NCBI GenBank assembly: GCA_016840285.1
Contig: JAEOSR010000050.1
Coordinates: 1 to 64,000 of the forward strand
DNA length: 64,000 bases
Reading direction: 5' to 3'
Source: Candidatus Hodarchaeota archaeon
GTDB taxonomy: Archaea > Asgardarchaeota > Heimdallarchaeia > Hodarchaeales > Hodarchaeaceae
Part shown: piece after piece, positions 7,810 to 58,275 of the stretch
Numbering within the stretch: position 1 is the stretch's first letter
Layout of the letters: every line of letters starts with the position of its first letter
Position numbers and translations under genes: made by a program
The notes under the pieces: model-generated
What the model saw: the letters and a program-made list of their open reading frames with translations, nothing else
Told to the model about the DNA's origin: nothing
Databases searched by the model: none

Positions 7810-8601
7810 TCAAAGCTTTTGGATTTTCCCAGGGGTGGGTTCAAAAAAAACTCCGTTTAACAAGCCTTTTTCAAGAGCTTTTTTCACAGTCCTAAAAGGA
7901 ATTCCTCTTTCTTTGGCAATTCTTTTGAGGGATTCTATTTCTATAGGTTGTTCAGAAATGAAAGATAAAACCACAGCTGCAGTCTCATCAGCAGATAAGA
8001 ACTCTTGAAAATCATTTTCTAAATTATCTGCTTCTTCTTGTAAGATACTTTTTTTTTGTAATGAAGTTTGAATTAGATCATGGAATATAGATTTAACTTC
8101 AGAAACTGCTTCTAGATAACATTTGACATGGAAGAATTTGTAAGAGAAAAACTTTCTCCCATCATCCAATTCAACTCGAGTAGGTTCAGCTACTCGGAGA
8201 ATACCTTTTTCTATCTTCTTCTCACAAATTCTGCAAACACCACGAGAGCTTTTAGAGGATTCAAGAAAAGGTATTTGTAGGGATGCACTACGAGACGGAG
8301 GACTTTCAACACTTTCTTCTAGAGGTTTTTTTAAAGATTTTGCAATTTTAACTCTGTTAGCTGAATCTATTGAATTTGATGATTCCAAAATTTCGAGAAT
8401 TGTCTTTATCTTATCTTGAGGAGAACATTCAGGATGGTAATATCCATATGATGTAACTGTTTCCCCATCAGGTATTGTAAATTGATAGGGGATACCGATT
8501 CTGTATTCCCCCTTCAAAATTTTTCTACGACAATTCCGACAGGATGCCCTTCCGCTTTTTGCAGGTTCTATTATTGGAACTTCAGCTTTTTTGGCTGACA
8601 C
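7810..8601 (-). CDS. Protein with two PARP-type zinc fingers and a winged-helix-like tail
   Basis: Two repeats match the PARP-type zinc finger. Repeat 1 has KSGRASCRNCRRKILKGEYRIG with ligands C21, C24, H56 and C59. Repeat 2 has SSRGVCRICEKKIEKGILRV with C123, C126, H158 and C161. The spacing from second Cys to His is 32 in both. In human PARP1 the ligands lie at 21/24/53/56 and 125/128/159/162, nearly the same layout. There is no WGR or ADP-ribosyltransferase domain; residues about 200-263 look like a winged helix (SLKRIAKERGIPFRTVKKALEKG). In eukaryotes these fingers bind DNA nicks and ends, so a DNA-break-binding or transcription role is the best guess. The start at ATG 8601 gives the full first finger. 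Confidence 0.75.
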   Translation of the reverse strand: MSAKKAEVPIIEPAKSGRASCRNCRRKILKGEYRIGIPYQFTIPDGETVTSYGYYHPECSPQDKIKTILEILESSNSIDSANRVKIAKSLKKPLEESVESPPSRSASLQIPFLESSKSSRGVCRICEKKIEKGILRVAEPTRVELDDGRKFFSYKFFHVKCYLEAVSEVKSIFHDLIQTSLQKKSILQEEADNLENDFQEFLSADETAAVVLSFISEQPIEIESLKRIAKERGIPFRTVKKALEKGLLNGVFFEPTPGKIQKL

Positions 8602-8709: not shown

Positions 8710-8737
8710 GAAAATCACTCATCGGATTTTGATTCAA

Positions 8738-9844
8738 ATGAAGTTAAAAGCTGTTTTTCTAATATTACTTGTCAATATTCTTATTTCCTCATTTTTAGCG
8801 GTTTCTCTAGGCGTAAATAATAAAGGAAAGACTTCTATGTCTCATGACTGGCACTTCATTGCTTTAGGAGACACCCGCAATTGGGGTGAGAACGATTCTA
8901 ATCCTGTTAGAGCTGCGGTAATCAATTCAGTGGTAGAAAATAATCCCAATTTAAAATTTATTCTACATTCGGGAGATATGGTTAATAGAGGAGGAGAACA
9001 GGACGATTGGGATCGTTATTTTGAAGATATTGAAAATGCTACAGAAAGAAATGTTAAGTTATATTATGCCATTGGAAATCATGAAACCTACACCTACAAT
9101 TTGCCAGATGGTAGTTATGGCCCTCCTGAAACGAATTTTTCTACTTATATGAAAAATGTTGATCTACCAGGGAATAAAAGATATTATAGCTTTGATTTTA
9201 ATGATCAAATTCACTTTATAATTATTAATACAGATGAATATTGGGAGGGTGGAGATGAGGGTACCTTCGATATTACAGCAGAACAGCAATCGTGGATAGA
9301 AAATGATTTGAATAAGAATTCCATTGACTTTGTTGTTGCAATGTTTCATCGGCCATGTTATTCAATCAGAAGAACCTCAAGGGTTGTAGCTGCTCAAGAG
9401 ATCAGACGAGTCCTAGAGCCTCTCCTCATTGATTACGACATTGATTTAGTATTTTCTGGCCATGATCATTATTATTATCGTACAAAACGGAATAACATTG
9501 TTCATGTTGCCACAGGTGGGGGAGGTGCGCCTTTAGCTTTCGATGACGATACTTCTGAATGGTTAGAGGATGATATATTCTTCTCAGAATATCACTATTG
9601 TAATGTCACTGTAACCCAATCTGATGAAAACATAATAGTAAAAGTAGATATGTTGATTTTAGATGAAATTGAAGGAACAACGACTTTGGGTGATTCATTT
9701 GAAGTAGTCAATCACTTGGGTGAAACAACATTAACTTCTTCCGACACAGATGAGACAACGACAACTAAAGGTACTATATCCATCCCCCTTCTCTTTGGGA
9801 TTCTCGGAATTATCTGTATTAGCTTCTTACAAAAAAAAGGATAA
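8738..9844 (+). CDS. Secreted, membrane-anchored calcineurin-like metallophosphatase
   Basis: The product has an N-terminal signal sequence (MKLKAVFLILLVNILISS) and a C-terminal hydrophobic anchor (ISIPLLFGILGIICISFL) ending in lysines, with a Thr/Ser-rich linker before it. Between them are the metallophosphoesterase motifs: ALGDTRNWG, LHSGDMVNRGG, AIGNHE, AMFHRPCY and FSGHDHYYY, which ligate two metal ions. The fold resembles purple-acid or alkaline-phosphatase-like extracellular enzymes. ATG 8738 is preferred over a TTG nine bases upstream because it begins a classic signal peptide behind a TATA box. It should act outside the cell on phosphate esters; the substrate is unknown. Confidence 0.82.
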   Translation: MKLKAVFLILLVNILISSFLAVSLGVNNKGKTSMSHDWHFIALGDTRNWGENDSNPVRAAVINSVVENNPNLKFILHSGDMVNRGGEQDDWDRYFEDIENATERNVKLYYAIGNHETYTYNLPDGSYGPPETNFSTYMKNVDLPGNKRYYSFDFNDQIHFIIINTDEYWEGGDEGTFDITAEQQSWIENDLNKNSIDFVVAMFHRPCYSIRRTSRVVAAQEIRRVLEPLLIDYDIDLVFSGHDHYYYRTKRNNIVHVATGGGGAPLAFDDDTSEWLEDDIFFSEYHYCNVTVTQSDENIIVKVDMLILDEIEGTTTLGDSFEVVNHLGETTLTSSDTDETTTTKGTISIPLLFGILGIICISFLQKKG

Positions 9845-9880: not shown

Positions 9881-10998
9881 TTATGAAAGAAATATAAATC
9901 GAGTGCTTTTGATATCTCCGCTTGTTGTATATGGAGATTCAGAGTGAGTTTTTGCGGCTGTTATAAATTTCTCAAGATTATTTGAAATAAATGTTATCAT
10001 TTCTTCTTTTAAAATGTCGAATTTTCCATAAATTTCTGGAATAATGTAAGTAAAGAAAACAAAAATTCTGTCATAGCATTTGAAATGCCAAATAACAGAA
10101 TTCTGAAGTCTCTTAGCTCCTATTAAAGACAAATTATCTCGATATTTGTTTAACAGATACTCTTGCTTTATATATCTGGAAATAGATTCTAATAAAGGAT
10201 CTGAGATGTCATCTTGTTCGTAACCCTTTGCTGTGGAAAATAAATAATCCCCATTTTCATCATAGACTAAGATGAAAGAAACAAATTCAGCCAAATCGGA
10301 TTTAATTTTACTTAAAACCTTCCAGTATATTGCTGCATCTTCTCCTAATGGGCCCTCAATTGCTTTTTCAAAATTCTCATCCAATCCTGCAAATTCAGGA
10401 GTCTCTAGGTTTGCTTGAAGTGGGGTATAATGATCAAGCAAATTACTTGGTAATTGTTGAAATTCGTTTGATGTGGCCAAAGATACTAGTGAGACACCGT
10501 TTGGAGCTTTTGCATAATCGACATATAGAGGTTTATTTTGGTCTACAGCTAGGTCTAGTAGTATAGGTCGCACTATGTCTTTAAGCTGCATTATCGCTTC
10601 TAATAATCCCGACATCAGCAAAATTTTCGTGTTTTTTGGACTTATTTCTGGACTATCACGGTTTTTAATGGCTCCTGATTTATTAACATGAATCGATCGT
10701 GTATAAACAGGAAGGCCACCCTCATCCGCAAGAATCACAAGAAGATTGCTCCCCTTTAGGGAGGATTGACTAACAAGAGGCTGATTTTCATTAGCCAGCT
10801 GATTAAAATATTCTTTTGTCTTGTTCTCCTTCTGCAAGAACAATTCATCCTTGGTTGAACTAAACCGATAATAAAGTTCCTCCCATAGTACTTATTAAGG
10901 TGAACTAGAGAATCTATTCGAAAATTTATTTTCCCTATCCTAAAAACTGATTTGTAGAAATTTTCTAAAAGAATCCTGTTGTTAATATCTTCTCCCAA
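9881..10998 (-). pseudogene. Tandem longin-like protein, interrupted by a probable one-base frameshift
   Basis: The intact frame (10843 to 9881, TTG start, 320 residues) holds two longin-like units: one around LLVILADEGGLPVYTRSI, one around FVSFILVYDENGDYLFSTAKGY, each followed by a long helix. Upstream of its apparent start the frame continues as WEELYYRFSSTKDEL, then meets a stop. A second frame from TTG 10998 supplies a natural N-terminus ending in DSLVHLNKYY. Inserting one base near 10885 joins them as ...NKYY-WEELYYRF.... The reconstructed gene is 1.12 kb and overlaps the end of dph2 by 34 bases. It is either a real frameshift or a consensus error. Function is unknown; scaffolding of GTPases is plausible from the fold. 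Confidence 0.5.
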
Positions 10999-12095: not shown

Positions 12096-13046
12096 TTGCT
12101 TGAAACTTTTCTTATTGATCAAGGAATAATGCAATCAAGACGAGTTCGCCTTCTATGTATTCCTGACTATCTATTTTTTAGAACTCACGCCCATAGACTT
12201 TACCGAGAGTTTATAGGTATCCCACGTTACTCTATCATAACCCGAAAAGTCACTGATGAACTAGAAAAACATTCAGATCAAACTTGCTCTCTCGAAACTC
12301 TATATATTGTCGACGGATCATCAGCTCTAACAAACGCTCCCTTTTACTTTCCACTTGCTAAGCACCTGGATTTATCTATTGTTGGAACTAATCTCGATAT
12401 TACTGAACTCCCAAAACTAAGGTACACGACCCCCTCGAATAAAAATTTCCAGCAATATGAACCAATAACTGTTGTAAGTAGTGAAGTCATCTTCCATGCT
12501 CCACTTTATGAGAGTGGATTAGAATCAAATGCTATAACACTTCCCCAATCATTTGACCTTTTCTTACAACCAATAACAGTAACAAAAAACACAATCGCAG
12601 TGGGTTCTGTTCGAGAAATCGACGAATTCTTTCCTATCAATTTCGATATAATGAGGATTAATTTAGGAGACTTTATAGAATATAATCAGCTCTTCTCGAA
12701 ACCTATTGGGCTATCAGGAAATGCAAAAACGATGCGTAAACAAGCAGTCTTAGAAGGATTAGGTTTAATAATTAGTAGCTTTAACATTCCCATTGTACTA
12801 ATTTCACTCTATAAAATCGCTAAATTCTTCGCAACTTCATCTGACTCTATACGACATCAAATACAAGATATTTGTAATCGTTGGAACTTTTCAGAATCAC
12901 TATTAATTAATAATGAAAAACGAAGAGTCTGGAAGAAAGAAAAACAGGAAACGCTTGAAATTTTTTATGATGCTCTTGGTTATATAGTCTTATTCAATCG
13001 TTCTGCGCAAAATAAGCCTATTATTACGGCTTCTCCACGAAATTAA
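12096..13046 (+). CDS. Unknown protein, about 300 residues
   Basis: I do not recognise the family. The 316-residue product has no signal peptide or clear transmembrane span. It begins with a basic segment (SRRVRLLCIPDYLFFRTHAHRL), has a beta-rich middle (ETLYIVDGSS, TIAVGSVREID), and ends in a helical, basic region (NEKRRVWKKEKQETLEIFYDAL). The start is uncertain: TTG 12096 gives the longest frame, while ATG 12129 follows an AAGGA run. It is divergent from dph2 and shares a 123-base spacer with it. Base composition and codon use match the neighbours, so it is likely a real lineage-restricted gene. Confidence 0.6.
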   Translation: MLETFLIDQGIMQSRRVRLLCIPDYLFFRTHAHRLYREFIGIPRYSIITRKVTDELEKHSDQTCSLETLYIVDGSSALTNAPFYFPLAKHLDLSIVGTNLDITELPKLRYTTPSNKNFQQYEPITVVSSEVIFHAPLYESGLESNAITLPQSFDLFLQPITVTKNTIAVGSVREIDEFFPINFDIMRINLGDFIEYNQLFSKPIGLSGNAKTMRKQAVLEGLGLIISSFNIPIVLISLYKIAKFFATSSDSIRHQIQDICNRWNFSESLLINNEKRRVWKKEKQETLEIFYDALGYIVLFNRSAQNKPIITASPRN

Positions 13047-13791: not shown

Positions 13792-14715
13792 TTGAAAATA
13801 TTTGGCGACATTTTCCAATTAAAAATAAAGTTGGAATTTGCCTTGTTAGTCAATGATTTCCTGATTACACTTGAAATTGAGAAAGGGTACTCACCAAAAA
13901 CTATTCGGGAATACTCCTATGATCTGAAAATGTTTGAACGGTTTAATTGTGGAAAACCATTCGAAGAAACTACAACTATGGATTTACGGCGGTTTTTACT
14001 TCATCTTAAGCGAGATAAGGAATACGCTGCAAGAAGTCTTCATCGAAAAATATGCTCTTTAAAATCATTTTTCAAATTTTTAAAGAAAGAAGGTCTTATT
14101 TCTACAAATCCAACCGAAAACATTGAATCTCCGAAAATCCCAAAGTCCTTACCAAAAACGATTACTATTGAAGAAACTTTGAAGTTGTTAGCCACCCCAG
14201 ACAAACCAAGAGACAAAACAATTCTTTACTTGCTTTATGGAACAGGTATGAGAGTGTCAGAATTAAGTAATCTTAACATTGAGCAAATAGATCTAAAAGA
14301 TAAAACTATTCATGTAATAGGTGGAAAAGGAGGGAAGGACAGAATAATCCCTTTCCCTAATGAAATAATAAAAATTTTGGAAGATTATATCATAACACGA
14401 GGGAGTCCACAGGATTCAGCATTTATCCTGAACCGTTCAGGTAACAGGTTAACCCCTAGATCAATACAACGAATTGTGAAGAAGTATAAAAACGCAGCAA
14501 ATTTGTTAGATAAAACATTAACTCCCCATACTTTACGACATGCGTTTGCTACTCATCTATTATCAAATGCTGTTGATATCCGTGTCATCCAAGAGCTCTT
14601 AGGACATGCTTCCCTTTCAACGACCCAACTTTATACCCATGTCTCCTTAGAACACCTTAGGAAATCTTATGACTTAGGACATCCGTTATCAAAACAACAG
14701 GTTATCGAAGGTTGA
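13792..14715 (+). CDS. Tyrosine recombinase (XerA/XerD-like)
   Basis: The 307-residue protein has the N-terminal SAM-like core-binding domain (LEIEKGYSPKTIREYSYDL) and a C-terminal catalytic domain with all expected residues: Arg in YGTGMRVSEL, Lys in GGKGGKDR, HTLRHAFATHLL (His-x-x-Arg), His in LLGHASLSTTQ, and the nucleophile Tyr in LYTHVS. Archaeal XerA resolves chromosome dimers at a dif site; this may be that enzyme or an integrase relative. No neighbouring att or dif-like site was seen. The start is unclear: TTG 13792 opens the frame, but ATG 13779 reads 25 sensible codons in another frame before a stop, so a small lesion in the A-rich 13820s is possible. Confidence 0.85.
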   Translation: MKIFGDIFQLKIKLEFALLVNDFLITLEIEKGYSPKTIREYSYDLKMFERFNCGKPFEETTTMDLRRFLLHLKRDKEYAARSLHRKICSLKSFFKFLKKEGLISTNPTENIESPKIPKSLPKTITIEETLKLLATPDKPRDKTILYLLYGTGMRVSELSNLNIEQIDLKDKTIHVIGGKGGKDRIIPFPNEIIKILEDYIITRGSPQDSAFILNRSGNRLTPRSIQRIVKKYKNAANLLDKTLTPHTLRHAFATHLLSNAVDIRVIQELLGHASLSTTQLYTHVSLEHLRKSYDLGHPLSKQQVIEG

Positions 14716-19428: not shown

Positions 19429-20478
19429 TTATTCCTCTGCGAGAATTAAAATCTCATTTACTTTATTCTTTTTTGAAGTAAGAGCATACTTGTAATCTTT
19501 AATAAAAATGTTAGCGTTTTTTTTGTAACTGAGTAATAATTTTTTCAATGCCTCAATTCCTGGTATTCCAGGATCTCGATAGGAAATCACAACTTTAGAA
19601 TCTTGAAATTTAGATATTGCTTTTTCAAAGGCCTTAAAAATCTCCTTTGGATCATTCCATTCGTTTTCAATCAACTTCAATCGCTTATGTTTAGAATTAC
19701 CGTCTATCAAATCCTCCCATTTATCGTACTGGCAAATTCCCTCAAGGAAATGATAATAATCTCTATAATCTACTCCAATCCCCTTTGAAGAAATATAGGG
19801 AGGATCAAGATAAACTAAGTCATATCCTTCATCTGGGATAGGGATATCCTGTATAGGAAAATTAAGAGCCTTATTTATCCTAGAATTATCAAATATTGCC
19901 TGATTGCCTTCTCTCAATGCTCGCAACATCAACTCTAGAAAGGGAGTATCCCATGTTTTCTTGTTCCCGAAACTACGTTTGACATTATTTAAGCGGAGAT
20001 AAAGATTTTTGCGATGGAATAGATTAAAAGGACGCTTTTGAATACAGGCCTGAAAAAGAGCAAAATAACAGAGTGCTTTTTCATATTGATCTTTCAGATG
20101 GGAAATATTTTGAACCAGAATGTCTAACAGCATATTCTCTTCATTGGTATAATAGATATCTTTAAATTGGTCTTGGATAATCGTACGATAGTTATACCCA
20201 TTTTTACTCTTAAACAGTGATTCTATTCGTGTTGGGTCTAATTTTTTATTCTTATTTTCAATTAGGGCTTTCCCAATAAACCAATTTGAAATGAGAATAT
20301 CATTATAGGTAATTTCTTTCCCCATTCTTTTAAACATATAGCTGACTGCGCCTGTCCCACCAAATGCATCTAGAACAGTTTCAAAACCGATCTTTTGGAA
20401 AATAGGTTGAAACCAATCAAGTAATTTGAGTTTACTTCCCTGGTATCTAGTCTGTGGGAAAGGAACTTGCATTTTCAT
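19429..20478 (-). CDS. D12-class DNA adenine-N6 methyltransferase (Dam-like)
   Basis: The 349-residue enzyme has the D12-class order: QTRYQGSKLKLLDW at the N-terminus (SAM-binding region), LDAFGGTGAVSYMF near residue 40 (motif I), and LVYLDPPYI near 225 (catalytic DPPY). Enzymes of this class methylate adenine in short DNA sites. No endonuclease gene lies next to it, so it may be an orphan methyltransferase used in marking or protection. Three further DNA methyltransferases occur in the window. Confidence 0.85.
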   Translation of the reverse strand: MKMQVPFPQTRYQGSKLKLLDWFQPIFQKIGFETVLDAFGGTGAVSYMFKRMGKEITYNDILISNWFIGKALIENKNKKLDPTRIESLFKSKNGYNYRTIIQDQFKDIYYTNEENMLLDILVQNISHLKDQYEKALCYFALFQACIQKRPFNLFHRKNLYLRLNNVKRSFGNKKTWDTPFLELMLRALREGNQAIFDNSRINKALNFPIQDIPIPDEGYDLVYLDPPYISSKGIGVDYRDYYHFLEGICQYDKWEDLIDGNSKHKRLKLIENEWNDPKEIFKAFEKAISKFQDSKVVISYRDPGIPGIEALKKLLLSYKKNANIFIKDYKYALTSKKNKVNEILILAEE

Positions 20479-24018: not shown

Positions 24019-24543
24019 TTACCAGCGACTTCTATCTCGATCTCGTGAACGACCCCTATCACCCGAAGAATAACCACCTCGATCACGATCTCTGTCACCA
24101 CCTCGGTCGTATCCACCATAACTCCGACGTGGTCTTCTTCTACGAGTATCCTCATGAACTTCTTCAGATCGGTCATTATCCATATCAACAGAATCTAGAG
24201 TAATAACTTCATCAGTATCCTCAAGATTACCCCACTTTCCTAGCGCTAGGCGCATGTGTTCTTGGAAAACATTGACATAACCATTCTTGACAATATATGT
24301 GCTACCCTCAGTGACTTGATCAATTGTTTCATCCCAAAGGGTAAGAATAATCGTTCCAGTCGGATCCCCGATTTTGATATCTGCTAATCGATGTTCTTCA
24401 TTTGTTTTTCGAGACGTTATCGTACGTGATTCACCTTTTTCAACGGCTACGAATGTGACTTGAAGTTTTCGGTCGAAAGGTGACAATTCGCTAATTTTCA
24501 TTTCTTTTAATTCGATTTCAGTTTCTTCTTGAGATTCGCTCAT
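24019..24543 (-). CDS. OB-fold single-stranded nucleic-acid-binding protein with RG-rich tail (SOSS-B-like)
   Basis: Residues about 10-110 form an OB fold of the archaeal RPA/SOSS-B1 type (MKISELSPFDRKLQVTFVAVEK, ADIKIGDPTGTIILTLWDE, GSTYIVKNGYVNVFQEHMRLALG). The tail from about 125 is Arg/Gly/Asp-rich (RRRRPRRSYGGYDRGGDRDR), like eukaryotic RGG regions. The likely role is ssDNA or RNA binding in repair or replication. MSESQEE at 24543 is the preferred start; the frame is open to 24597, but the added residues are basic and look non-coding. It lies between the TnpB remnant and two DNA methyltransferases. Confidence 0.82.
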   Translation of the reverse strand: MSESQEETEIELKEMKISELSPFDRKLQVTFVAVEKGESRTITSRKTNEEHRLADIKIGDPTGTIILTLWDETIDQVTEGSTYIVKNGYVNVFQEHMRLALGKWGNLEDTDEVITLDSVDMDNDRSEEVHEDTRRRRPRRSYGGYDRGGDRDRDRGGYSSGDRGRSRDRDRSRW

Positions 24544-24851
24544 ATTTTTCACGTGTGTTTTCTTTTCACGATAGCTAATGCTTCGCTTGATTATCACATA
24601 AAAACAGACTTAGGTAAAATCAGATATACTGAAGCATTCTCAAGCCCTTTGATGTGAAATAAAGCGTAAATCGTGCAAATTAGCTGGAAAAAAAAGAGAA
24701 TTATTAACCTTTTTATTTTTAGGGAAAAAAACTATTGTTACAAGGATATCTTATTGATTACTTACTATTCCCAATACTGCTTCATCGTGAGCAACTAATT
24801 TTAAATAATACCAAATTCAGAGTAAATTAAGGTTTTTCTGAGAGAAAAGCG

Positions 24852-25922
24852 ATGGTTGACTACGACGTTTTTGATAATCAAACAGTATATTACAAAAGTT
24901 CAGAGAACATGTGCGAAATCAAAGATAATTCAATAGACGTAATTGTTACATCTCCTCCTTATAATCGGAATAAAGTTTATTCTGATGATATGGGGGGAAC
25001 CTATAATGATAAGCAACCAAAGAAAGAATATTTTCATTTTTTAACGAGAGTATGGAAGGAATGTTTTCGAGTATTAAATCCAAGGGGACTTTTCTTTTTA
25101 AATATTGGAGACGCCGCTCCAGATCAAGGGGGCAGTGAAATGGTGGTTCAGCTTGCAGTTGAAACTGGTTTTCATCGTCTACAAACGATAATCTGGGTTA
25201 AATCATTTCTTGGTAAAGGTCATTTTACCCCGAGTGGTGGGTCAAGACGTTTGAATAATCTTTGGGAGAATATTTTCGTTCTTGTGAAAGATAGAAAAAT
25301 GTATCACATTAATCCGAAGGCGATAGGAATTCCTTACGCTGATAAATCAAACATTGGCCGATATGCTGATGAAGATCTAAGAGACGCTGGGAATATTTGG
25401 CTAGTACCTTACTCAAAAACCACAGGTGCGGCAGTAAAGAAGGGACATGAGGCTCCCTTCCCAGTGGAGTTACCGTACAGATGTATTAAACTTACAGAGG
25501 GAGACACGGTTCTTGATCCGTTTGTTGGCACAGGAAGTACCCTAGCAGCCTCACGATTATTGAAAAAAAAGGGAATTGGTTATGAAAAGTTCCCTCGAAA
25601 AGAAATCATTAGAAAAAAAATATTTGAGGATTCGTTTAAAGACACGCCTTCGATTCTTCTTCCTCATATGGAATTAACTATCAACATTTTGTCACGCTAC
25701 TGTAGTATTATTGAGTACAGTCAGCTCCATGAGGGAGGATTTTTCAGGTTCTCTCAAAAGGAGAAAACGCAATTAAATATCCTAAAAGATACTTTAGGTC
25801 AATTAAATCTACAAATTCCATTTTTAGAGGAATATATCGATCAATGGGAAAAAAACCAAGAGAAAAAGAAAAGCAAGAAGAAGATTAAAGCACTTACGAA
25901 GTTTTTTGAAGAGTCAAAATGA
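24852..25922 (+). CDS. DNA methyltransferase (N4-cytosine/N6-adenine type)
   Basis: The 356-residue protein is a beta-class amino-methyltransferase: catalytic motif IVTSPPYNRNKVY near residue 33, then LNIGDAAPDQGG, and SAM motif LDPFVGTGSTLAASRL near residue 218. The C-terminal third is helical with a Lys-rich end and may help in site recognition. It starts at ATG 24852 and is followed 49 bases later by a second methyltransferase on the same strand. Such paired enzymes sometimes modify the two strands of an asymmetric site. No restriction gene is adjacent. Confidence 0.85.
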   Translation: MVDYDVFDNQTVYYKSSENMCEIKDNSIDVIVTSPPYNRNKVYSDDMGGTYNDKQPKKEYFHFLTRVWKECFRVLNPRGLFFLNIGDAAPDQGGSEMVVQLAVETGFHRLQTIIWVKSFLGKGHFTPSGGSRRLNNLWENIFVLVKDRKMYHINPKAIGIPYADKSNIGRYADEDLRDAGNIWLVPYSKTTGAAVKKGHEAPFPVELPYRCIKLTEGDTVLDPFVGTGSTLAASRLLKKKGIGYEKFPRKEIIRKKIFEDSFKDTPSILLPHMELTINILSRYCSIIEYSQLHEGGFFRFSQKEKTQLNILKDTLGQLNLQIPFLEEYIDQWEKNQEKKKSKKKIKALTKFFEESK

Positions 25923-25971
25923 ATGAGAATCCCTAATTATGTGAAGAAATGATATTAGGAGTCAGTATTCC

Positions 25972-27408
25972 TTGGATCAGACAGTTCAAGTCAGAAACTA
26001 CGCGTTCAAGCAGAAATTGAAAAATATCATTCCACCAGTAAATTACTTGACTCACAACCTTTACTCATACCCTGCTAAATTTATCCCACATGTCCCTTAT
26101 TATGTAATATCGAAATTCTTGAAAAATGACGATAGTATCATTTTAGATCCTTTTGCGGGAAGTAGTTCAACAGCTATTGAAGCCTTACACTTAGGTCATA
26201 ATACCATTTGCATTGATATTAATCCTCTCACAAATTTTCTCACAAGGGTGAAAACTCAACGAATAACTTTTAATCTTGCTCAAAAAGCCCCATTAAAGTT
26301 AGATTCCTTTTTAGAAACTATAATTGACAAACCAAAAAAGGAAAAAAGTAAAACAATCCATCTGAGTAAATTGATTCAACAAATGAGTAAAAGTGATGAA
26401 ATTTTTTATCCGAGGTGGAAAAATATTGATCATTGGTATCCGATGGAGTTTAAACATAATCTTACGCAGATTTGGGGTTTTATTTATTCAATAGAAGATA
26501 AATATCCTGAAGACTTCATGAATCTATTAAAATTAACTGCATTATATATTTCCCGGTACTTATCATATGCAGCACGTGATGTACCGAAATTATTCAGATC
26601 TAAACGGAGAATAAAGCAAGTTGAAGATCTTCGTAAAAAAGTAAAGGCTAATCCCAATATTCCTTTTGATACTTTTCGTAGAACACTCACTAAATACTTT
26701 AATCAAATGATGAATCTGACAAAAGTCCTAGAAGAGAAAAATATTACCCCAATTTATGAAAATAAGATTATCAATACTATTCGATGTAATGAGGCCAACA
26801 AGAGAAAGATCATCTGCTTAGGTGATACAGATGTTTTATCAATCAATTTTCCCTTGGATGAAGAATTCATAGATTTGGTTATTACTTCTCCTCCATATAT
26901 TTATGCTCAAGAGTATATAAGGTCAACAAAGCTAGATCTTTATTGGTTAAACTTAGTTGATGATATTCGAGTAAGAGATCTTACAAAAAAAGAATTGGGT
27001 ACAAAAAAAAGCACTAGCATTGAAGTTATCAAGAGGAAATTAAGAAATATCAATTCCTTTAATTCAACTATGGAGATTCTTGAAAAAAGAGAGAAAGAAA
27101 AGTATGGAAAGAATGGAAAATATATCCACCAAACCTATAATTATTTTTATGACATGTATTTAATTATTGAGAAAGTAATCAGGTACTTAAAACAACAAGG
27201 AATATTTGGATTTTTTATTGGAAATCCAACAGTCTTAGGGTACCAGGTCCCCTGTCACAAAATTTTTTATCAAATATTCATAGATTTAGGATTAAACATC
27301 AAAGAATTTGGTTATGACGAAATAGTCTCCCCTCGTCTACTGAAAGGACGGCAGAATTTATCACCTGACGGTATGAAAGCTGAATGGTTAATTATTGGTC
27401 AGAAATAA
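25972..27408 (+). CDS. DNA methyltransferase, TSPPY type
   Basis: The 478-residue protein has the SAM motif first (LDPFAGSSSTAIEALHLGHNTICIDINPL, near residue 60) and the catalytic LVITSPPYIYAQEY near residue 305, with a long helical insert between them. A typical opening segment is NYLTHNLYSYPAKFIPHVP. The motif order is opposite to that of its upstream neighbour, so they are not recent duplicates. The start is TTG 25972 with AGGAG about ten bases upstream. It is probably cotranscribed with the preceding methyltransferase. Confidence 0.82.
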   Translation: MDQTVQVRNYAFKQKLKNIIPPVNYLTHNLYSYPAKFIPHVPYYVISKFLKNDDSIILDPFAGSSSTAIEALHLGHNTICIDINPLTNFLTRVKTQRITFNLAQKAPLKLDSFLETIIDKPKKEKSKTIHLSKLIQQMSKSDEIFYPRWKNIDHWYPMEFKHNLTQIWGFIYSIEDKYPEDFMNLLKLTALYISRYLSYAARDVPKLFRSKRRIKQVEDLRKKVKANPNIPFDTFRRTLTKYFNQMMNLTKVLEEKNITPIYENKIINTIRCNEANKRKIICLGDTDVLSINFPLDEEFIDLVITSPPYIYAQEYIRSTKLDLYWLNLVDDIRVRDLTKKELGTKKSTSIEVIKRKLRNINSFNSTMEILEKREKEKYGKNGKYIHQTYNYFYDMYLIIEKVIRYLKQQGIFGFFIGNPTVLGYQVPCHKIFYQIFIDLGLNIKEFGYDEIVSPRLLKGRQNLSPDGMKAEWLIIGQK

Positions 27409-34082: not shown

Positions 34083-35120
34083 GTGTTTCGAATCTCTTTG
34101 CTAAAAAGACTCTTCAGAAGACACTCGAAAGAAGAGAAGACTAGTTCCACTCCCCCCAAACAGGAATTAATTACGTTCATTGGAGAAGCTTATGCAGGAA
34201 AAACAACAATTCTGCATCGCTTAAGAACAGGGGAATTTTATAGCAGTTCAGTTAGAACAATGGGATTAAATGTAGATTCTTTTGAATATCGCAATGTTCA
34301 ATTTCAGGCATTTGATTTAGGTGGTCAAGAGAGTTTCCACATGATTTGGGGTGATTACTTAAGGCTTTCCAGCGCAGTAGTTTTCGTAATCGATTGCTCC
34401 AGCCCCCAAAGCTTTGCTTCAAGTAAAGCAGCTCTCTACAATGCAATGCCTAGCATTCCTGAAAATGCGGTTCTTCTTATTGCAGCGAATAAAGCAGACA
34501 TTTCAGGCGTTAATCCATACGTTACTTTACTCAAGAACTTTGATCTATATGATATCCAACAGAAAGGGGGTTTTCGTGCCATCAATATATTCCATATGTC
34601 CGCAAAGACTGGAACTAATTTTTATCAAGCATTTGACTGGTTAATAGAAACTTTGACGGGGGAAATCATCCTTCCTAATGTCCACATTCATAATGTTTGT
34701 ATCTATCAGACTGATTCTGGTCTTCTTGTTGGTAGTAGTAGTTCACTTGCTCAAAGGCAATCACATTATGACCCTGCATTATTAACAAGTATGTTTTCCG
34801 CTGTAAATACGTTTGCTGAAGCATCAATGGGAGCAGGAGTGAGAGAAATACTTATGAAAAGAAGTCACACAGCTGGTTCAGATGAAGTCTCAGATAATTA
34901 TAAACTAGTCCGCGTTGAAGAAACGGACTTTTCAGTAATTCTGATTGTTGAGGAATCCGATTCCATGAGGAAAAGCGTAAAGATTGGTAAAGATCTATTA
35001 GTCTGGACCAGGATAAAGATTCCAGAGACTGTTAAGCTCATTGAGCTGATTGATGGGGAAGAAATCCAGACTTATCTATCAATGAAATTCCCAGAAGACC
35101 TTGTCATGGCCACTGCATAA
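34083..35120 (+). CDS. Arf/Ras-like small GTPase fused to a C-terminal longin-like domain
   Basis: Residues about 28-190 form a small GTPase: G1 GEAYAGKTT, G3 DLGGQE (Arf/Rab style with Gln for catalysis), G4 NKAD and G5 SAKTG. From about 203 a second domain begins HNVCIYQTDSGLLVGSSSS, then a helix (DPALLTSMFSAVNTFAEA), a strand (NYKLVRVEETDFSVILIV) and a helix, which is the longin/roadblock order. In eukaryotes small GTPases and longin/roadblock proteins work as separate partners (SRP receptor, Rag-Ragulator, MglA-MglB in bacteria). Here both are in one chain. The start is GTG 34083. The N-terminus is basic, with no lipidation site that I can call. Confidence 0.8.
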   Translation: MFRISLLKRLFRRHSKEEKTSSTPPKQELITFIGEAYAGKTTILHRLRTGEFYSSSVRTMGLNVDSFEYRNVQFQAFDLGGQESFHMIWGDYLRLSSAVVFVIDCSSPQSFASSKAALYNAMPSIPENAVLLIAANKADISGVNPYVTLLKNFDLYDIQQKGGFRAINIFHMSAKTGTNFYQAFDWLIETLTGEIILPNVHIHNVCIYQTDSGLLVGSSSSLAQRQSHYDPALLTSMFSAVNTFAEASMGAGVREILMKRSHTAGSDEVSDNYKLVRVEETDFSVILIVEESDSMRKSVKIGKDLLVWTRIKIPETVKLIELIDGEEIQTYLSMKFPEDLVMATA

Positions 35121-49758: not shown

Positions 49759-51114
49759 TCAGAATCTTGTATCCGAGACCCCCCATTTCTCCATTGCTTG
49801 AGCAAGCTCAGGATACTCGTCTTCATGATCTTCAACGTAATCTTCGAAGTCTTCACTCGCTGTGGCTAAATCATTCATCCCAATATCTATTGCTTGACGG
49901 AACGCTCTAGCCCCTGCTACTGGGCCTTTAGGATGAGCATGAATTCCACCACCACTGCCAATCATCACATCATTTCCTAAGTCTTGCATCACCCTCAAGA
50001 CCATCCCAGGTGTTATACCACCAGAAGGCATAGGTAGAGTGGGTTTGAGATGATGCATTCGATACCGATGAGCTTTGGCAAGTCCAAGATATTTCTCTTT
50101 CAAAAATGGTGCCTTACCGTAAGGAGCAGGATATACAACAATATCAGCCCCGGCTAAGCGAGCTAACTTACCCATAATTAAAAAGGATGACACACCAGAG
50201 TAAGGGGATTCGTAAAAAGCCCCTGCAAAGTCCATATGAGCAAGAATAGGTAATTTGATTTCTGGATCCTCTGCTAACATCCTCAATGCAGGTAGCCCCA
50301 CGACAAGATAGTTCAACATTAATGCATTTCCACCCACGTCTTGGACAGCTAAGGCATTATTCCTAAGCTTTGTAAGATTATCAGTTATATTGACGGTATA
50401 TAATGTCTCTTCTCCTGTTTCATCACGGACTTTATCTACTGCTTCCATCATAAGAGGAACTCTGTCAAGAATTTTGTTATAATCCATGTCTGCAATGAGT
50501 TCATCATCTTTAACAACATCACAACCACCTAATGCAGCAGAATAAAATAATTGGGCTCCTACCTCCGGAGTCCACCCACTACAGGGTTTTATCATATTGT
50601 TTAGTAAGGGCCGTTCAGGAACCTTGAGGATTTTACGGACCCCTTCGATGCCAAATTTTGGCCCCTGAAAATTTTTTATCCAATGCTTGGGAAAACGAAG
50701 GTCTAACAACTTTAATTTTCCTCCCATGCTTATGTTACCAATTGTGGCTGTCAACATCAAGCCAATTTGATTTGTTTGATTTATAGACGGAAAAGCGATC
50801 TGGTAAATGTAGTTTCGCTCATCGACATCCTTTGGAATTTCAAACTCAAAACTTGGAACTTCATAAATTCCCAAGACTTTAGCACCGAATTTACCTCGTA
50901 ACTCGGGTGTATTTGCAGGAACAGGAACCCATGTGCCTGTTGACTGCTCACAAGCAGCAGCTCTCCCCAAATAAGCGGCATCCATTCTTGGACCAAGTTG
51001 TACCAGATAAGTACCTATAATGTACTCCTCAGGATCAATTCCCTCCTGTAGAGCCTCTTCAATAGGGTCATATTGAGCGAAAATATCCTTTTTTTTTGGT
51101 TTACCTTTTGACAT
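49759..51114 (-). CDS. RuBisCO-like protein (large-subunit family, form IV-like)
   Basis: The 451-residue protein has the RuBisCO fold and several active-site residues: E56 (CEQSTGTW), N127 (GNIS), K176 (MIKPCSGW), the carbamylatable K202 with D204/E205 (GGCDVVKDDE), H293 (AHMDFAG), and S364-G-G (MPSGGI). Key substitutions are Cys at 178 where RuBisCO has the second Lys of IKPK, Met at 294 after the His, and no loop-6 Gly-Lys-x-x-Gly. It probably enolises a RuBP-like substrate without CO2 fixation. Convergent with CheR; its substrate is unknown. Confidence 0.8.
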   Translation of the reverse strand: MSKGKPKKKDIFAQYDPIEEALQEGIDPEEYIIGTYLVQLGPRMDAAYLGRAAACEQSTGTWVPVPANTPELRGKFGAKVLGIYEVPSFEFEIPKDVDERNYIYQIAFPSINQTNQIGLMLTATIGNISMGGKLKLLDLRFPKHWIKNFQGPKFGIEGVRKILKVPERPLLNNMIKPCSGWTPEVGAQLFYSAALGGCDVVKDDELIADMDYNKILDRVPLMMEAVDKVRDETGEETLYTVNITDNLTKLRNNALAVQDVGGNALMLNYLVVGLPALRMLAEDPEIKLPILAHMDFAGAFYESPYSGVSSFLIMGKLARLAGADIVVYPAPYGKAPFLKEKYLGLAKAHRYRMHHLKPTLPMPSGGITPGMVLRVMQDLGNDVMIGSGGGIHAHPKGPVAGARAFRQAIDIGMNDLATASEDFEDYVEDHEDEYPELAQAMEKWGVSDTRF

Positions 51115-56307: not shown

Positions 56308-58275
56308 TTAGATATTGAACTCAGACAATATTTCTCTTTTATGAAGAGGAGTTAATCGATATATCTTGAAAACCAGATCATCGATTTCTTTCTCCAATTG
56401 AAGAATCCTCGGATTTAACTCCCTTCTCTCCCCTTTTATTGATTCTATTTCTTGGGCTAAGGAAAAAAATCTTTGATACTGGGATTGAAGCATCTTAGCT
56501 TTTTCACCAACCTGATTCACTAATGTTACTTCGTTGTTTGTAATTGGTACTTTGATGGGGAGACGCAAGAACTTCTTTTGGGTGAAATGAGGAAAATCTT
56601 GACGATAGGGATCTGCAAATTCTATAAAAAAGAATTTATCCATCAATTTCGAGTTCAACACTCCCATAATATATTCCAAGGTGACAGACACATTTTTCTT
56701 TAATTTAAAGAGATATACGACTTGATTAACCCACCTATTTTCATAGTCAATTGCAGTCCTAATTCCATATCCAGTTTTTCTAAGGAGAAGCTTAGGGCCT
56801 TGATAAAGAGCTGGATCCTTATAATTGATTCCAATACGAGCTGGGTCGATATATTTATGATTCTTAATATAGTATCTCTGGATGTGATGCCCAACTAGAA
56901 AAGGTCTATCTCGTTCAGGTTGTTGAGGGTTATCAAATACAATATAATCAGTCTTATCATTTTGAGTGATTTCTTTTTGGCAATTTGGACATTTTTTCCA
57001 TTTTATACCATCTGTGTTAAAACGACTGGGTGGAGAGGACCACCATCCACATGAGGAACACTGTACTATTTTACCATTTCTATTAAGTTCTACTCCTCTA
57101 GCGTTCTCAACAAAATCTCCTAATGGTTTTACTTGGATTTTGTCATGATAAAGGTCTTTTTCTACCATTCTTTTGAATTCGTTATATCCAATTGAAAAAA
57201 TGTTAAATTGATAATCATCACAGAGAAAACGTTTCTGGTAACAGGAAATGGTTGGAAGAGAAGATAATGATTTATTTCCTTTCTTTAAACTTCCTTTCAT
57301 TTTTGGTATGATATGCCGAATAGTTTCAATTTTGTGATCAGGGGGGGATAATCCTTTCTCTGCTATAATAATCATACATGGTTGAGTTATTTCTGGGAAA
57401 ATATTCTCCCCCAGATTAACGATTTTTATAATTTTGCATGTTTCCAATATGAATTTCCGGACTTCAATATAGTTCTCATTTAAAAGCAATGTATTTGGAA
57501 TTACAAACCCTAGACGACCACCCTCATTCAGAGCTTTCAAACTTCTCTCAATGAAAAGGCTCCAGGAGTCAAATTGTTGGATTCCAACACGATAGGAGCT
57601 TATTAGATCAGAAGAAAATAATCCTGCTCCCCATGGAGGATTTCCAATAATTATATCAAATTTGCCTTTAATTTCTGGAAATATTGTTTCCCATGGTATT
57701 GGTTGGATATTTGAGGAAATTCGGAATTCTTCAGTTAATTTTGTCGTTAAATTCTTCTTAATCCGTTTCTCAATTTTAGTTATACATTGTTGCTCCTCTT
57801 CACTTGAAAAAGTCAGAGTCCCATCTATATAATGTCTTTTATATTGAAGTCGCAGCTCTTCGAGGGGAGAGGAGTCAAATTGGAGGGAATAGGAAGGTGG
57901 AGGAATAAGTGCATTGAAACTTTTAAGATTTACATTGAAATTAAGGCAATTTAGGTTCTTTTGAGTTTCGACAATTTGAATGGGGTCAATGTCTATTCCA
58001 TATAATTGATCAGCAATTATTTTCCTTCTAATTCTTTCTGAGGATTCATTAAACTTCTTGATCTGTCCAAAATGGGATGACAAGAACTCTAAAGCTCGAA
58101 CCAGAAATATTCCCATTCCACACGCAGGATCAAGTATCTTTAGCGAGGAAATCTTATCAGAACTTGTTTTAAGGAAATAGCCAATTGTCTGCTCAATAAT
58201 ATAATTTACAATATAAGTTGGAGTATAATATTGGCCAAGTTTCTTACTTTTTAACCTGGTCCGTTTTGTCATCAC
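56308..58275 (-). CDS. Eco57I/TaqI-type DNA adenine methyltransferase with zinc-ribbon insert
   Basis: The 655-residue enzyme starts KKLGQYYTPTYIVNYI, then LDPACGMGIFLVRAL (SAM motif I), DQLYGIDIDPIQ, FDIIIGNPPWGAG (catalytic NPPW), and a C-terminal target-recognition-like region (PYRQDFPHFTQKKFLRLP). A zinc ribbon (CSSCGWWSSPP... KKCPNCQKE) sits near residue 400. There is no N-terminal PD-(D/E)xK nuclease as in type IIG enzymes. It may be an orphan methyltransferase. It lies between the ECF-like and histone genes on the same strand. Confidence 0.85.
   Translation of the reverse strand: MMTKRTRLKSKKLGQYYTPTYIVNYIIEQTIGYFLKTSSDKISSLKILDPACGMGIFLVRALEFLSSHFGQIKKFNESSERIRRKIIADQLYGIDIDPIQIVETQKNLNCLNFNVNLKSFNALIPPPSYSLQFDSSPLEELRLQYKRHYIDGTLTFSSEEEQQCITKIEKRIKKNLTTKLTEEFRISSNIQPIPWETIFPEIKGKFDIIIGNPPWGAGLFSSDLISSYRVGIQQFDSWSLFIERSLKALNEGGRLGFVIPNTLLLNENYIEVRKFILETCKIIKIVNLGENIFPEITQPCMIIIAEKGLSPPDHKIETIRHIIPKMKGSLKKGNKSLSSLPTISCYQKRFLCDDYQFNIFSIGYNEFKRMVEKDLYHDKIQVKPLGDFVENARGVELNRNGKIVQCSSCGWWSSPPSRFNTDGIKWKKCPNCQKEITQNDKTDYIVFDNPQQPERDRPFLVGHHIQRYYIKNHKYIDPARIGINYKDPALYQGPKLLLRKTGYGIRTAIDYENRWVNQVVYLFKLKKNVSVTLEYIMGVLNSKLMDKFFFIEFADPYRQDFPHFTQKKFLRLPIKVPITNNEVTLVNQVGEKAKMLQSQYQRFFSLAQEIESIKGERRELNPRILQLEKEIDDLVFKIYRLTPLHKREILSEFNI

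Follow-up and report, generated by a model that had tools for sequence, protein, structure and literature searches.

What is a pair of PARP-type zinc fingers doing in an archaeal protein without a PARP catalytic domain? The question is raised by one gene on the reverse strand (7810..8601) of the window, i.e. the 64,000-nucleotide stretch of Hodarchaeales DNA analyzed in this work. In eukaryotes, the main response to strand breaks begins with the fingers of PARP1. Excerpts from a 2014 survey describe PARP proteins as absent from archaeal genomes, although PARP-like activity is cited there for Sulfolobus, and most bacterial PARPs as consisting of WGR and PARP domains (PMC4245714). Among the best matches by title and beginning of abstract in the published literature (preprints being outside the scope of this search), we found no report of zf-PARP in archaea, and a term search in the main text of Eme et al. 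(2023) was likewise negative.

Two PARP-type fingers and their DNA-contact residues

The gene is an uninterrupted open reading frame for a 263-aa protein with the domain order zf-PARP, zf-PARP and MCM-like winged helix, and its GTG start fits the MSxK... N-terminus of the relatives. The Pfam model zf-PARP (PF00645) matches this protein in two stretches with an E-value of 1.4e-22 and 80.6 bits (cut-off 39.3), which is far beyond chance. Among solved structures, the single sequence matches human PARP1 Zn1-Zn2 at 8.2e-8 (phmmer), and the family profile, made from an alignment of 34 sequences (the window protein and 33 relatives), matches it with an E-value of 8.1e-17 in one colinear stretch, residues 1-169 against 1-170. 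In the search of solved structures the family profile also matches the fingers of ligase III (8.9e-9) and of an Arabidopsis PARP (6.3e-8), and the zf-PARP model in turn matches every one of the 34 aligned sequences at E up to 1.

Finger 1 (8407..8574, reverse strand; residues 10-65), defined from the Pfam stretch 12-98 and the alignment with PARP1 Zn1, has the ligands C21, C24, H56 and C59. Finger 2 (8107..8268, reverse strand; residues 112-165), defined from Pfam and the PARP1 alignment, has the ligands C123, C126, H158 and C161. The sequence-only reading had described two genuine PARP-type fingers, had placed their ligands exactly at these positions and had seen no catalytic domain. All of this stands, and the zf-PARP profile search on which the finger assignment had partly been staked returned a match rather than none.

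The protein resembles human PARP1 Zn1-Zn2 in its tandem fingers, ligand pattern, K/S/R/K/R residues and linker length, but it differs from PARP1 in that an MCM-like tail takes the place of the remaining domains: Pfam detects in it no catalytic domain PF00644 and, at E up to 10, no PADR1/Zn3, BRCT, WGR or regulatory domain. No enzyme domain was found by Pfam, no NCBIfam model matches the protein and PADLOC has no model for it. DNA ligase III and plant ZDP, which are counted among the zf-PARP class in excerpts of PMC3094755, likewise carry such fingers without a PARP catalytic domain, but in those proteins the partner is a ligase or a phosphatase, whereas in the window protein no enzyme domain was found.

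The same excerpts give the ligand spacing of the class as C-x2-C-x(26-37)-H-x2-C, and report for PARP1 F2 that mutations of K119, S120, R122, R138 and W157 abolish DNA binding and that mutation of K134 lowers it (PMC3094755). Another source, also seen in excerpt, places Arg18 and Arg122 of PARP1 at the break, within the minor groove (PMC4678113). The gap between the second cysteine and the histidine is x31 in both fingers of all 30 family pairs, which falls within the class range of 26-37. The residues of contact type are K15, S16, R18, K30 and R34 in finger 1 and K117, S118, R120, K132 and R136 in finger 2 of the window protein. Across the 30 complete pairs, finger 1 has at these positions K in 30, S in 25 (T in 5), R in 30, K in 30 and R in 30, and finger 2 has K in 29 (R in 1), S in 30, R in 30, K in 30 and R in 30, so that the equivalents of PARP1 F2 K119/S120/R122/K134/R138 show six exceptions in 300 cells. 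The position of W157 is occupied by Y in 25, W in 3 and F in 2 of the first fingers, and by F in 21, Y in 7 and L in 2 of the second, tryptophan being found in only 3 of the 60 family fingers. As judged from the alignment, the DNA-contact residues of PARP1 F2 are kept in both fingers, with the exception of W157.

An MCM-like tail and OB-domain partners

The C-terminal winged-helix-like domain (7813..7992, reverse strand; residues 204-263) was characterized by profile searches. The family profile gave non-self matches, through residues about 199-263 only, to frames in ten of the 14 genomes of the order (E-values from 1.3e-7 to 3.3e-4) as well as to a 26-aa fragment; the class-wide search added tail matches in three further genomes. 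Each of the 13 extracted tail-match regions has an ORF ending in an MCM-like C-terminus, one of them (L094) being a 94-aa piece only. All four tail-match ORFs that were run on Pfam are MCM proteins, and three of these four contain intein splicing domains. In whole genomes the tail part of the family profile matched MCM and no regulator. Comparison of the tail profile (34 rows) with the 13 MCM C-termini gave 98.1% (E 8e-14), whereas 99 column shuffles did not exceed 1.94% and the reversed alignment gave 0.51%. The two sets share about 60 residues under one profile and have a common end of the ...FEPxxGxVQK type.

The profile comparison thus indicates a relationship between residues 204-263 and the winged helix that ends MCM, the replicative helicase. 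The tail had earlier been called winged-helix-like; this assignment is borne out and the domain can now be named MCM-like, which, together with the fusion of SSB between the fingers in a related genome described below, takes the sequence analysis beyond the earlier description. In contrast to archaeal MCM, the window protein lacks the helicase core, and the model of the archaeal MCM winged helix PF21120 (MCM_WH_arc) does not match it in Pfam; among the relatives this model was seen only for P0034, where the match is not significant (E 0.067).

The MCM proteins found along the way include ORFs of 1,080-1,716 aa in genomes of the Heimdall class (loci L087, L089-L092, L096 and L097). The two of them that were run on Pfam (L092 and L096) contain intein splicing and LAGLIDADG domains.

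The window also encodes a free-standing single-stranded-DNA-binding protein (SSB; 24019..24597, reverse strand) with an Ssb-like OB fold and an Arg/Gly/Asp-rich tail. Its true start may be the internal ATG at residue 19, which coincides with the beginning of the relative P0079. Its structure matches are the Arabidopsis protein 1wjj (1.7e-9), SOSS-B1 (7.6e-8) and Sulfolobus SSB (1e-6). Pfam finds no OB fold in the finger protein of the window itself, which sets it apart from proteins of the SSB/RPA type. However, two of the 34 members of the family alignment, P0022 (genome G003, locus L003) and P0023, match Ssb-like_OB and have an SSB-type OB domain between the two fingers; this domain resembles the crenarchaeal SSB, SOSS-B1/hSSB1 and archaeal RPA type. 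The OB domain of P0022 is 50% identical to the SSB of the window over 164 aa, and 58% over 133 aa.

Matches to this SSB are present in 13 of the 14 order genomes, several of which have more than one. The SSB and finger genes share a strand, with the SSB gene on the upstream side, in eight genomes (8.8-11.7 kb apart) and in the window (15.4 kb apart). The linkage is absent from the fusion genome G003, where a free SSB copy lies 284 kb away, and in G052 the two genes are found on separate contigs. The linkage of SSB and finger gene is loose, and the fusion may be a chance event.

Two fingers also occur in another architecture, zf-OB-zf, which lacks the tail. It was found in genomes G041, G043 and G045, and in G044 as a copy at a contig end; in G047 it was assigned from two finger matches in one frame, and a 103-aa frame of G042 contains a single finger. 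The OB domain of this architecture is RPA-like by weak matches (P0036 against Sulfolobus SSB, 6.5e-5; against the NCBIfam model of replication factor A, 8.7e-7, which is under the cut-off of the model). The OB domains of P0022 and P0023 do not match those of zf-OB-zf proteins at E up to 1, and match the SSB of the window with about 150 bits; separate acquisitions of the OB domain are therefore likelier than a common origin of both linker domains. Three further genomes (G037-G039) encode one-finger proteins with a C-terminal OB-like part, for which the match in the one protein run on Pfam was below the cut-off (1.9e-4). PARP-type fingers and OB domains recur together, which suggests that junctions between single- and double-stranded DNA could be the target.

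These architectures also bear on the distance between the fingers, for which a PARP1-like spacing had been noted. The first cysteines are 102 residues apart in the window protein and 104 in PARP1 (C21 to C125), so that the likeness is real for this protein. It does not extend to a family constraint, since the linker of relatives, unlike that of PARP1, holds whole OB domains: the distance is 95-102 in 28 of the 30 family pairs, 211 in the remaining two, whose linker contains an OB domain, and 210-224 in 11 proteins of the zf-OB-zf architecture. On these measurements, a constrained PARP1-like spacing was rejected.

Distribution, gene order and descent of the fingers

Of 1000 candidates from a search of some 5.8 billion proteins, 36 had E-values up to 1e-3, and every one of these contains zf-PARP. 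The organism-labelled relatives come from metagenome-assembled genomes of Heimdallarchaeota, Hodarchaeota, Hodarchaeales, Hodarchaeum, Promethearchaeota and, once, Thorarchaeota, and some relatives bear the database labels ferredoxin or poly [ADP-ribose] polymerase. In Hodarchaeales, the order of genome G001, the family profile matches 12 of 14 genomes. Ten of these have the two-finger protein, the copy of G052 being cut by a contig end; G054 has one finger with a different tail, and G051 has the MCM match only. No family-profile match was obtained in G049 and G053, the order assemblies being of unstated completeness.

The wider census covered 227 Asgard and 14 control genomes. Fingers of the zf-PARP type were found in 57 Asgard genomes (54 over the cut-off) in several domain architectures, and in none of the 14 controls. 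The PARP catalytic domain PF00644 was not found over the cut-off in any of the 227 Asgard genomes, which gave one weak match (4.4e-4). Many Asgard genomes encode proteins of ~230 aa (L023-L051) with an uncharacterized N-terminal part of ~150 aa and one C-terminal zf-PARP finger; in L024, the member of this set tested, Pfam recognizes the finger only. There are 25 one-finger rows with such an N-terminal part, a few of which are fragments. A 619-aa frame in genome G015 (L118:2175-4031) starts with one PARP-type finger that is followed by ~560 uncharacterized residues.

The gene order around the finger gene is conserved in eight related loci (L001-L008). A 320-aa protein without a Pfam match (9881-10843, reverse strand) is encoded near the finger gene in all eight, in L003 as a match to an 83-aa ORF only. 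A diphthamide-synthesis gene, the gene at 12096-13046 and an ArsR-type HTH gene are each present in seven of the eight loci, as is a GDSL hydrolase on the other side of the finger gene. A tyrosine recombinase of the phage-integrase family (13792-14715, forward strand) keeps its place in the gene order in six of the eight and is thus probably a chromosomal Xer-type enzyme. The nearest upstream ORF, on the opposite strand, encodes a calcineurin-like phosphoesterase (8729-9844, forward strand; 3e-17) and has relatives in two of the eight loci. Apart from the recombinase, no DNA-transaction proteins were found among the neighbours scanned on both sides, which represent part of the window ORFs. Relatives of the finger protein were found neither in 50,697 phage and 72,556 plasmid records (tblastn, E up to 0.01) nor in viral contigs (pattern scan). 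A mobile or defence role was rejected on these negatives and that of PADLOC, with the gene order instead conserved over the eight loci, and we read the finger gene as a stable chromosomal gene.

The descent of the fingers was approached by trees of 59 columns made with a quick method. From 114 fingers, 106 rows were retained after removal of five from proteins with one complete finger and three duplicates. For a 66-row tree, 40 more rows were removed by hand; for a 49-row tree, 20 more were dropped, including LIG3 (branch length 3.02 in the 106-row tree), and three were added. The eukaryotic fingers number five overall and four per tree. They include the Zn2 finger of P0067, presumably a eukaryotic protein, which was returned by a profile search and, like PARP1, combines two fingers with a PADR1 domain; its Zn1 was excluded because of an insertion.

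The second fingers of the two architectures with two fingers fall into a single group in three trees, with an SH-aLRT support of 99, so that the archaeal finger pair is probably older than the split of these architectures. PARP1 Zn1, PARP1 Zn2 and the plant finger group together with supports of 95 (106 rows), 82 (66 rows) and 85 (49 rows, with Zn2 of P0067 added). In the 106-row tree this group is nested with support 99, on long branches, inside ten archaeal one-finger rows, LIG3 standing apart. Such nesting would favour an archaeal source, but it is not repeated by the 49-row tree, where the group is placed elsewhere (72). Neither pairing of the PARP1 fingers is rejected by AU tests: p is 0.488 for Zn2 and archaeal finger 2, or 0.349 when a second Zn2 is included, and 0.377 for Zn1 and archaeal finger 1. 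The PARP1 tandem may represent a separate duplication or a descendant of the archaeal pair. The proposal that the module is older than PARP is only made plausible by the presence of zf-PARP and the lack of PF00644 over the cut-off in the Asgard census, while the part of it that concerns descent is left undecided by the finger trees. The joining of such fingers to an MCM-like tail in place of the PARP enzyme suggests that break sensing by them is independent of PARP chemistry, which it may also predate.

Proposed function, alternatives and other genes of the window

We lean towards a reading of the protein as a non-catalytic sensor of DNA strand breaks or junctions in Hodarchaeales that is tied to replication. 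Its components differ in strength: binding of broken or junction DNA by the fingers appears highly probable from their sequences, a link to replication through the winged helix is put forward tentatively and falls just short of an even call, and a route specifically through Orc1/Cdc6, suggested by analogy, seems unlikely. Like the F1-F2 pair of PARP1, the two fingers would hold a nick, a gap or a junction of single- and double-stranded DNA from both sides, and SSB would coat the single strand beside the junction. The MCM-like winged helix would link the break so held with the replication machinery through contact with DNA; alternatively, the tail might occupy the surface normally used by the MCM winged helix, in Sulfolobus the ATPase domain of Orc1/Cdc6. 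The protein would flag breaks and gaps, or keep them in place, for repair without an ADP-ribose signal, and could restrain recruitment of MCM near breaks. According to excerpted literature, the MCM winged helix of S. islandicus binds the ATPase domain of Cdc6-1 (PMC5333045, review), MCM is more active when its winged helix is deleted, and this domain has been suggested to help sense DNA damage (PMC4619765, review), and the winged helix of archaeal RPA binds primase and PolD (PMC11686378).

The same domains could be assembled into a repair adaptor instead of a replication factor, with fingers that bring an end-processing enzyme or ligase to breaks, in the manner of the finger of DNA ligase III or plant ZDP, and a winged helix that provides a plain contact with duplex DNA or protein. 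The matches of the family profile to the fingers of ligase III and Arabidopsis PARP point in this direction, as do the other class members named in excerpts of PMC3094755, ligase III and AtZDP, and the phosphoesterase encoded next to the finger gene. However, this neighbour lies on the opposite strand and recurs in two of the eight loci only, no nuclease, ligase or end-processing enzyme was found among the other scanned neighbours (part of the window ORFs), and the tail is specifically MCM-like; we rate the adaptor as rather unlikely. Winged helices are common in archaeal regulators, and the finger gene stands alone between opposite-strand ORFs, as might be expected of a sequence-specific or global transcription regulator in which DNA is read by the winged helix, with the fingers contributing no more than affinity. 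This role is very improbable given that the whole-genome tail matches are MCM and no regulator, that one fusion of the fingers is with SSB, and that PARP1 fingers leave a footprint at a break whatever the surrounding sequence (excerpts of PMC3094755).

Horizontal transfer of a fragment of eukaryotic PARP1 to Hodarchaeales would account for the colinear match to Zn1-Zn2 and is compatible with the AU tests, which reject the pairing of neither finger with its PARP1 counterpart. It can hardly be credited in view of the spread of fingers over 57 of 227 Asgard genomes in several architectures, the archaeal finger 2 group (99), by which the pair probably predates the split of the architectures, and the grouping of PARP1 Zn1, Zn2 and the plant finger with each other in the best trees (95, 82 and 85). 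The opposite direction is included in a broader scenario that we regard as doubtful: the ancestor of the Heimdall class would already have had a PARP-type two-finger sensor of DNA breaks and gaps working with SSBs, Hodarchaeales would have added the MCM winged helix and thereby signalled breaks to replication by MCM mimicry, and the fingers of PARP1 and ligase III would descend from archaeal stock. If it is true, break sensing preceded poly(ADP-ribose) signalling. Eme et al. are said to have proposed in 2023 that Hodarchaeales are closest to eukaryotes. For the sensor that we propose here, Asgard fingers without an enzyme, but with an MCM-type tail and SSB, provide a testable candidate for break recognition before ADP-ribose signalling, and the small size of the finger protein makes it suited to such testing.

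Several other genes of the window were identified in the course of this work. The 345-aa protein encoded at 34083-35120 (forward strand) has a small GTPase domain of the Arf/Ras type, which is common in Asgard archaea, and a protein of the RuBisCO large-chain family is encoded at 49759-51114 (reverse strand). DNA methylase genes are represented by a D12-class gene (19429-20478, reverse strand), an Eco57I-type gene (56308-58275, reverse strand) and two adjoining ORFs of the N6/N4 type (24852-27408, forward strand), the second of which matches only the last part of the model.
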